Part shown: positions 33,289-34,689 of the stretch, piece after piece | How the letters are laid out: the number at the start of each line of letters is the position of its first letter | How positions within the stretch are numbered: the stretch's first letter is position 1 | Virus record (IMG/VR): IMGVR_UViG_3300044522_000154 | Coordinates: 1 to 37,503 of that record | From: a virus | Length of the DNA: 37,503 nt | Reading direction: 5' to 3' (one strand) | Notes under the pieces: generated by a model | Told to the model about the DNA's origin: nothing | Seen by the model: only the letters and a program-made list of their open reading frames with translations | Databases searched by the model: none | Position numbers and translations under genes: made by a program

Positions 33289-33604
33289 ATGTAAGCGAAT
33301 GTAACACAAATGTAATGTATTTGGAACCGTTACATCGTGTGAAGCCTTGGTATCACTACGATTACGTAGTAAAATGTAGAAATGCGGGTTTATACCCTAT
33401 ATACAGCCTATATATAATTATTATAATATATATATTTTTTTCGCTACGAAGAAGGGAGTAAAGTTTACATTCTTACATTTTTTAGGCTTAGACCAATGAT
33501 ACCAAGGGCTAGCGCGATGTAAAACTTTTTTGAACTTTACATCGCAAAACATTCTAGGGGGCTCCCGAGGTTTTGCTTACATTCCACCGACGTTTTGCTT
33601 ACAT
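33289..33604. repeat. Cluster of ten TTACAT/ATGTAA hexamers flanking an AT-rich block
   Basis: Exact copies start at 33289, 33299, 33310 (ATGTAA), 33330, 33465, 33473 (TTACAT), 33517 (ATGTAA), 33537, 33577 and 33599 (TTACAT); near-copies ATGTAG lie at 33278 and 33374. The first three are spaced 10 and 11 bp, about one helical turn. GTTTTGCTTACATTC occurs twice 22 bp apart (33570 and 33592), and GCGATGTAAA/TTTACATCGC forms an inverted repeat at 33514-33545. The pattern looks like iterons or operator sites. Confidence 0.75.
33405..33441. other. AT-rich block between hexamer groups (possible unwinding element)
   Basis: A run of about 37 bases, almost only A and T, ends in a T-run before TCGCTACG. 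It lies between the two hexamer groups, as unwinding elements do in iteron origins. Confidence 0.45.
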
Positions 33605-33918
33605 TCTAGTGGCTTGAGAGAGCATAATCTTGCGTACAGGTCGAAATAGTGCTTATCTGGTGAGCATGTTTTTGAATCCAAGTATAAACCCAGGGAACAC
33701 CTACTATGTTATGCATAGTACTATTTTGTGTTCAGATACCCTCACACGGGCAATAACAAACCCATCCTCACGCGCGTGTACTTATTATTAAAAAATAGAG
33801 AAATCTCGTAACTCACACGTTATCAATCAATTAGTATAAATACAAAAAAACTTTAGCTTGGGAAGTCCCGTAAACACTAGGAAAATGAAAATAATTTAAA
33901 AATAATTAAAAAAAGTCA

Positions 33919-33948
33919 TTGCCATTCCAAAACTTATTATAATATTTG
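33919..33948 (+). promoter_or_regulatory. Candidate promoter of the plus-strand early unit
   Basis: TTG at 33919-33921 and TAATATTTG at 33940-33948 are 18 bp apart, close to the Bacteroidota TTG / TAnnTTTG arrangement, but with three instead of two bases between TA and TTTG. Transcription would start near 33955 and include both ribozymes. Confidence 0.45.
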
Positions 33949-33949
33949 C

Positions 33950-34092
33950 AGTGTTGAAAGGGTAGAAAATTTGTAAAGACTCTGGATGCAAGTCGACATG
34001 ACTATAACTGCGGGTAAGTCTACTCTGGAATAAGCGATATAGATTTCGTGAAGTCCGAAGACCATGGGGGTATCCAAATAGGAACGAGCATG
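33950..34092 (+). other. Untranslated leader before the first ribozyme
   Basis: No credible gene. CTCTGGA occurs twice (33980-33986 and 34025-34031), AAGTC three times (33990-33994, 34016-34020, 34050-34054), and GTC-CGAA-GAC (34052-34061) can form a small tetraloop hairpin. A 15-codon frame starts at 33986. The leader would be released by ribozyme cleavage at 34099; any function is unknown. Confidence 0.35.
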
Positions 34093-34146
34093 AAACGTAT
34101 AAGGATGTGTATCCTTACTGATGAGCCACAGAATGGCGAAACGTTT
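34093..34146 (+). ncRNA. Hammerhead ribozyme, type III
   Basis: All conserved positions are present. Core CTGATGA at 34118-34124 and GAA plus A15.1 at 34138-34141. Stem I: UAAGGAU (34100-34106) with AUCCUUA (34111-34117), loop GUGU. Stem II: GCCA (34125-34128) with UGGC (34134-34137), loop CAGAA. Stem III, the open one: AAACG (34093-34097) with CGUUU (34142-34146). U34098 pairs A34141, A34099 is the residue before the cut, so cleavage is expected between 34099 and 34100 (triplet GUA). The 3' strand of stem III runs directly into the leader of the gene at 34160. Confidence 0.93.
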
Positions 34147-34159
34147 AAAACTATTTACC

Positions 34160-34351
34160 ATGGAAGAATTAGTAAGAATTGAGGACGTGAAGAAGGGAGA
34201 CTTCTTCAGATTACCAAAGGGCAAGGAGACTTACCAAAAAGATGGCTACTGCCGTATAAACAAGAAGTACGTTGGTCAGGCTTGGAGCGACATATCCAAG
34301 TGGACGTTGAAGAAAAAAGGAACACTAGTATTAATCGGATTTGAATTTTAA
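34160..34351 (+). CDS. Small basic protein, first gene of the plus-strand unit
   Basis: 63 residues from the ATG at 34160. A frame from 34121 would begin inside the ribozyme core and lacks a leader; 34160 instead has AAACTATTTACC before it, nearly the same as at the next gene. MEELVRIEDVKKGDFFRLPK, then GYCRINKKYVGQAWSDISKW and a beta end KKGTLVLIGFEF. The VKKGDFFRL...Y...YVG start is common in small phage proteins with an SH3-like barrel. It has no known function. It is the main gene within the ribozyme-bounded RNA. Confidence 0.65.
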   Translation: MEELVRIEDVKKGDFFRLPKGKETYQKDGYCRINKKYVGQAWSDISKWTLKKKGTLVLIGFEF

Positions 34352-34363
34352 TATCATATAATC

Positions 34364-34384
34364 ATTTAAAAACTATTTAACATG
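34364..34384 (+). promoter_or_regulatory. Repeated translation leader AAACTATTTAAC-ATG
   Basis: TTTAAAAACTATTTAACATG at 34365-34384 is almost the same as TTTAAAACTATTTACCATG at 34144-34162. No Shine-Dalgarno is present; A/T-rich leaders are usual in Bacteroidota. The repeat fixes both start codons. Confidence 0.6.
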
Positions 34385-34465
34385 AAAAAATCAATCTTAT
34401 TTTGGACGACGATAACTATAGTTATTGTAACAATTCATTTACTAACCCCTAACCACTACAGATAA
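34382..34465 (+). CDS. Micro-protein with one membrane span
   Basis: 27 residues: MKKSILFWTTITIVIVTIHL then LTPNHYR. A Lys-Lys N-terminus and one span (about 5-21). The leader repeat supports translation. Its start, MKKSI, recurs in the gene at 34686. Function unknown. Confidence 0.5.
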   Translation: MKKSILFWTTITIVIVTIHLLTPNHYR

Positions 34466-34466
34466 C

Positions 34467-34544
34467 ATGGGACAGAACCTAAAAGACATCGGACTTGCCT
34501 TCATACTATGGGCAGTATTTATAATAGTAGTATCAATAATCTAG
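34467..34544 (+). CDS. Micro-protein with one membrane span
   Basis: 25 residues: MGQNLKDIGLAFILWAVFII then VVSII. It starts one base after the preceding stop; its own stop codon supplies the first base of the second ribozyme (G34544). Its core ILWAVFII resembles IVWAVLIL of the micro-protein at 34612, and 13 bases (TATGGGCAGTATT) are identical, so the two are probably paralogues on either side of the ribozyme. Confidence 0.5.
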   Translation: MGQNLKDIGLAFILWAVFIIVVSII

Positions 34545-34595
34545 GTTAACTGACGAGTCCTGATTGGACGAAACCATCTTCGGATGGTATTAACC
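34544..34595 (+). ncRNA. Hammerhead ribozyme, type I
   Basis: Core CTGACGA at 34550-34556 and GAA plus A15.1 at 34570-34573. Stem I, the open one: GGUUAA (34544-34549) with UUAACC (34590-34595). Stem II: GUCC (34557-34560) with GGAC (34566-34569), loop UGAUU. Stem III: CCAUC (34574-34578) with GAUGG (34583-34587), closed by a UUCG tetraloop. U34588 pairs A34573; A34589 precedes the cut, so cleavage is expected between 34589 and 34590 (GUA). All core bases fit. It fills the gap between two micro-genes exactly. Confidence 0.93.
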
Positions 34596-34611: not shown

Positions 34612-34689
34612 ATGAAAGGAATTGTATGGGCAGTATTAATATTAATCTGCATATCAGTATGGGTACTAATTATAAAATCAATACTATGA
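34612..34689 (+). CDS. Micro-protein with one membrane span
   Basis: 25 residues: MKGIVWAVLILICISVWVLI then IKSIL, nearly all hydrophobic. It starts 22 bases after the predicted cut of the second ribozyme, so the processed mRNA would have a short leader. The stop overlaps the next start (ATGA). Similar to the micro-protein at 34467. Confidence 0.5.
   Translation: MKGIVWAVLILICISVWVLIIKSIL

Follow-up and report, generated by a model that had tools for sequence, protein, structure and literature searches.

A type III and a type I hammerhead ribozyme as probable punctuation of a mosaic early transcript in phages related to Flavobacterium isolates

The viral DNA studied here (IMG/VR virus record IMGVR_UViG_3300044522_000154, positions 1 to 37,503; the whole stretch of 37,503 bases is called the window, and is probably a fragment of a genome) carries two predicted hammerhead ribozymes at the head of its early operon, a type III at 34093..34146 and a type I at 34544..34595, both on the plus strand. 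Virion genes (portal, virion structural proteins) run leftward in the window, which also has a phage GroEL gene; a divergent non-coding region (~33,550-34,160) is followed by small genes that run rightward from ~34,100. Rightward transcription has a probable early promoter of Bacteroidetes type, TTG-N18-TAATATTTG (33919..33948, plus strand), proposed from sequence inspection and the known Bacteroidetes consensus; TATGTTTG occupies the same place in relatives, also by inspection. Then come a structured leader RNA, here called class A (33965..34099, plus strand), delimited by a covariance-model match and by the type III cleavage site at its 3' end, the type III ribozyme itself, and three small open reading frames (ORFs) on the same strand. 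ORF1 (34160..34351, 63 aa) is the exchangeable first gene of the operon; its mechanical start at 34121 falls within the type III ribozyme and is unlikely to be the true one. ORF2 (34382..34465, 27 aa, MKKSILFWTTITIVIVTIHLLTPNHYR) and ORF3 (34467..34544, 25 aa, MGQNLKDIGLAFILWAVFIIVVSII) encode hydrophobic microproteins that are kept in relatives; in at least seven contigs the two immediately precede the type I ribozyme. The ORF3 stop codon shares the first base of that ribozyme. The first ORF downstream of it, at 34612..34689 on the plus strand, encodes another hydrophobic microprotein of 25 aa. All three microproteins (34382-34465, 34467-34544 and 34612-34689) are single-span and 25-27 aa long.

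Both ribozymes stand at the places and on the strand that a sequence-only reading of this DNA had given them. The type III copy, supported by a descriptor scan, shuffles and homologous copies, matches Rfam RF00008 over the full length of the model (E=1.3e-7, 43.2 bits); it has the CUGANGA and GAAA core, three stems of 8/4/6 with stem III open, and a cut predicted after GUA, an NUH site, at 34099|34100. Since 43.2 bits falls below the gathering score of 48.5, a default-threshold Rfam scan returns nothing for it; default thresholds miss both ribozymes, and relaxed ones are needed. The type I copy gives a marginal match to RF00163 (18.7 bits, E=0.39) and is identified by its fold, a descriptor scan, shuffles and covarying copies. 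Its core CUGACGA...GAAA is intact, its stems measure 6/4/6 bp with stem I open, its cleavage dinucleotide is UA within an NUH site (predicted cut 34589|34590), and its minimum free energy (MFE) fold is the hammerhead fold. In 100 dinucleotide shuffles of the window (3.75 Mb), scanned with a descriptor requiring an intact core and stems, no site equalled either ribozyme. Self-cleavage is predicted at both sites, and the cuts would bound exactly the 490-nt RNA from 34100 to 34589, with three small ORFs inside, as had been claimed.

The similarity of the window to isolated phages at the DNA level is confined to the type III ribozyme, which is present at ~91% identity in 68 Elemovirus isolates of Flavobacterium sp. 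BAL314 and, in those inspected, occupies the same position, immediately upstream of the first rightward gene. From this kinship, the host of the virus probably belongs to the Flavobacteria. A scan of IMG/VR with the GroEL of the window gathered 80 related loci, in which 75 of 81 matches to the core only also have stems I and III. Stem sequences differ while pairing is retained in 30 type I copies and 35 type III copies, a count that leans towards pairing because the copies were located by their stems. The Elemovirus isolates offer a comparison free of this bias: stem II of their type I ribozyme reads GACU/AGUC in elemoA and elemoE and GGUU/AACC in elemoB and elemoC, that is, two compensatory changes between isolates on one host. 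Both the type III ribozyme at the same place in 68 isolates and these compensatory changes look new. One of the five isolates sampled, elemoF, has a type I copy (L003:7819-7880) with a mismatched stem II, GACU/AACC. It joins strands of two other Elemovirus lineages and is a natural near-knockout.

When the paired arrangement was sought in related phages, it was found conserved in the close ones. There, promoter and leader are followed by type III, then by one or a few small genes and a type I copy, to which a second type I is often added. Type III precedes type I in all close relatives examined that have both; in two more distant relatives, L085 and L104, type I comes before type III. The distance from the type III cut to the first type I cut is 237-637 nt in metagenomic relatives; in Elemovirus it is 1836 nt. 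Type I copies occupy the space between one gene's stop codon and the next start codon: they begin at the preceding stop or at most a few bases from it, and the next gene begins about 11-20 nt after the ribozyme. The sequence of the type III hammerhead ribozyme (HHR-III) is 100% identical in seven contigs (the window, L043, L044, L046, L023, L047 and L051; L023 and L047 are nearly identical throughout, and hence not independent). These seven carry three leader types, which are ~60% identical in global alignment, near the level of unrelated sequence here, and six unrelated first genes. Because leaders and first genes are exchanged around the type III ribozyme, the 490 nt are not kept together as one unit. 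Rather, the type III ribozyme appears to be a constant joint with exchangeable modules on either side, leaders upstream and first genes downstream, and this looks new.

The leader that would be released at this joint covaries. In an alignment of eight members, 11 of the 24 pairs show double-sided changes, and covariation scores 0.382, compared with 0.149 for shuffles and no more than 0.158 when slid. Covariance model R1, built without the window sequence, matches the window at 33965-34099 (E=5e-7), and its strong matches end at the type III cleavage site. Among 21 distinct matches, double-sided changes reach 22 of 24 pairs and the score 0.445 (0.148 in shuffles, at most 0.131 when slid), the alignment here having been fitted to the model, which biases it in the model's favour. 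A type III ribozyme comes after every one of the 16 leaders identified by motif, an association partly expected because the ribozyme or the GroEL gene had served to retrieve many of the loci. When IMG/VR was scanned with the motif GGGTAAGNCNACTCNGG, without use of the ribozyme, convincing leaders came out only together with type III; the scan was too loose, its matches being mostly due to chance, and recovered ~10 further loci with leader plus ribozyme. The class A leader matches no Rfam family, and the leader model found no match in 400 genomes of the Flavobacteriaceae-type family, in a search that had no positive control. The folding energy of the leader as a single sequence is not unusual (z -0.65); since such energies are not significant, it is covariation that carries the claim. 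Read in this way, the type III ribozyme defines the 3' end of a covarying leader of ~135 nt that is absent from Rfam and looks new.

Several observations on the leaders stand on their own. Class A comprises the window copy (33965-34099), L064:3666-3782 (minus strand) and about 20 more, and is linked to type III hammerheads. One of its parts, GGGUA...UACUC, has a loop AGUC that faces a downstream GAC and may form a pseudoknot. A type B leader (L049, L051, L057, L059) lies at the same place before type III and looks unrelated to class A; Rfam gave no match for it (L057), and neither did the leader model. Types C (L013, L043, L062) and D (L033, L035) again lie at that place before type III; type C shares part of class A and has an added 3' domain, and type D looks unrelated to class A.

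The predicted products also differ from random sequence at their ends. The last 40 nt of upstream products have a median MFE of -12.5 kcal/mol at type I sites and -18.3 kcal/mol at the type III sites of distant relatives, compared with -4.0 kcal/mol for random 40-mers, so that most cuts would leave a hairpin at the 3' end. The type I ribozyme supplies its own hairpin, and type III ribozymes placed between genes have a separate one: a hairpin of GTGTCTTCAAAGACAC type stands just before type III in 14 of 21 sites of distant relatives. (Among L068-L119, the GTGTCTTCAAAGACAC hairpin ahead of the between-gene type III is nearly fixed in sequence.) The first 40 nt of downstream products score -0.1 after type I, which is unstructured, and -10 to -14 after type III, where a hairpin forms. 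A hairpin on the 3' end of the upstream product, predicted for most cuts by these folding models, also looks new.

We consider it likely that the hammerheads serve as punctuation of the mRNA and as insulation points of a mosaic early transcript, releasing a structured leader. Transcription would begin near 33950 and run through the structured leader of ~135 nt, which the type III ribozyme would cut off at 34099|34100, so that the first message would receive the same 5'-OH hairpin ahead of its start codon whatever the leader. The type I ribozyme, which occupies the space from the ORF3 stop codon to the next gene, would cut at 34589|34590; the upstream message would then end in the stem II and stem III hairpins of the ribozyme, and the downstream one would start with an unstructured 5' end. 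By virtue of the III-then-I order, the middle message would carry a hairpin cap at either end, and leader, cassette genes and following genes would be expressed and decay independently of one another, in a region marked by frequent exchange of leaders and genes. Several points weigh against this account. Cleavage in infected cells, like the effects on stability, translation and insulation, is a part of it that we infer, and fast cleavage at cellular Mg2+ needs tertiary contacts, while the evidence here consists of core and stems. The type I copy scores poorly against Rfam. Some relatives have no second ribozyme in the available stretch which, together with the mismatched elemoF copy, suggests that type I may be dispensable. 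Finally, recombination at the ribozyme could account for part of the identity of HHR-III across seven contigs.

On a rival account, the ribozyme sequences are kept mainly as short homology for the recombination of leader and gene cassettes, cleavage being secondary. Perfect HHR-III identity between unrelated flanks would fit, as would a stem I reading GGTTAA/TTAACC in most type I copies and the stem II of elemoF, one strand of which is that of elemoA and elemoE and the other that of elemoB and elemoC. The explanation is nevertheless improbable, because covarying stems show selection for a folded RNA, and the copies lie on the sense strand and at gene boundaries, with hairpins at the ends of their products. 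The same compensatory changes, together with the fixed position and order and with arrays of up to nine copies in other phages, make it more improbable still that the hammerheads are selfish or neutral passengers with no function for the phage, even though their patchy presence in distant relatives, their rapid turnover and the mismatched elemoF copy could be read in this way. A better candidate, if an unlikely one, is that the type III ribozyme mainly releases the leader as a phage small RNA acting in trans, for instance on host transcription, translation or defence. The covariation of the leader (22 of 24 pairs double-sided, 0.445 versus 0.148 in shuffles), its lack of an Rfam family, the fact that every strong class A match ends at the cut and the type III ribozyme that follows all 16 motif leaders are in its favour. 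Yet several close relatives have exchanged the leader for unrelated or extended sequence, its single-sequence folding energy is ordinary, and a structured leader can also act in cis, through attenuation or antitermination.

The sequence-only reading had proposed that the 490-nt segment is possibly an excised mRNA or a circular RNA. The anatomy and the conserved III-then-I pair of the close relatives favour the former, and excision of the segment is the expected outcome of the paired cuts. The predicted 5'-OH and 2',3'-cyclic phosphate ends would suit ligation into a circle by RtcB or a similar ligase, and RtcB occurs in 64 of 301 genomes sampled from the probable host family (the family of a Flavobacteriaceae metagenome-assembled genome). 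However, the cuts lie anywhere from 237 to 1836 nt apart in relatives, and unrelated genes take the place of the first gene. Nor do the first and last 20 nt of the segment pair in the window (0.000); such pairing is also absent in six of seven relatives, the exception being L064 (0.47). RtcB-based circle designs use a shared closing stem, unlike the separate end hairpins of the segment. No RtcB was found in 17 phage records, in a search whose control was positive in 9 of 14 genomes; 13 phage records gave no PF09414 RNA ligase, and a search for the PF09511 ligase was uninformative because its control was silent. Spliced or circular products of similar phage clusters have been sought and not detected (PMC3088659). 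A circle is thus possible in some hosts, yet nothing in the sequence asks for one, and we regard this fate of the segment as very improbable. Self-ligation by the ribozymes was also considered and rejected from the sequence: the segment begins with UAAGGA, which cannot take the place of UUAACC as a strand of stem I.

The same reading knew of no described phage system of this kind, but clusters of hammerheads flanking single genes or short gene blocks were reported in prophages by Perreault et al. in 2011 (PMC3088659). Those ribozymes cleave in vitro and in E. coli, and cleavage into gene-length mRNAs was proposed for them (PMC3088659). The present pair belongs to this kind: here too, genes of a phage operon are flanked by more than one hammerhead on the same strand. 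It differs from the published clusters in its setting, phages akin to Flavobacterium isolates, in the III-then-I order that is fixed at the head of the early operon, in the covarying leader that ends at the cut, and in the leader and first gene swapped around an identical type III ribozyme. The novelty of these features is judged from open-licence literature, and later descriptions may exist. Retrozymes and viroid-like RNAs (PMC4918200, PMC7761336) resemble the locus in that two hammerheads bound a short RNA segment, but theirs are same-type copies in direct repeats that give circles of set length. Here the ends are of different types (III and I), the segment is protein-coding, varies in length (237-1836 nt) and in content (unrelated first genes), and there is no sign of RNA replication. 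The theta ribozymes of gut phages are likewise small self-cleaving ribozymes in phage genomes but are reported to have a hepatitis delta virus-like fold and to be tied to tRNA-based recoding (PMC10879173), whereas the hammerheads here stand in a window with no tRNA genes.

The closest engineered parallel is RiboJ, a synthetic insulator made of the sTRSV (satellite RNA of tobacco ringspot virus) hammerhead plus a hairpin, which raises transcript abundance ~twofold on average (PMC6206723). In both cases a self-cleaving ribozyme lies between a variable leader and a gene and yields a uniform 5' end bearing a hairpin, predicted here. The phage arrangement differs in being natural, in the predicted removal of a leader that is itself a conserved structured RNA, in insulation being a matter of interpretation, and in a second ribozyme that would form the 3' end. 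A full natural 'RiboJ', in which the type III ribozyme both frees a new family of trans-acting leaders and standardises the 5' end of the cassette while the second ribozyme replaces a terminator, is a combination we hold to be doubtful. The more general account of punctuation and insulation would, if true, mean that a synthetic insulator in wide use has a counterpart in nature. To the question of what hammerhead ribozymes do in phages, which goes back to 2011, this account gives a specific and testable answer: they would form 3' ends and insulate the exchangeable early genes, and would release a structured leader that is not in Rfam. The purpose of the ribozymes can now be tested because relatives, including 68 laboratory isolates, keep the cutters and swap the flanking pieces; the predicted product ends are readable by ordinary RNA sequencing, and elemoF offers a naturally mismatched second ribozyme.

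Hammerheads in larger numbers were also encountered. A scan of bacterial genomes with GGTTAACTGANGAGTC gave mostly chance matches and one true array, on a contig binned as Aliivibrio (L264). When three other ribozyme-array loci were compared with isolated phages by BLAST, two had no isolate and the third gave a weak match. The phage-like contigs L021/L034, L018, L030 and L264 carry arrays of four to nine hammerheads between successive genes.
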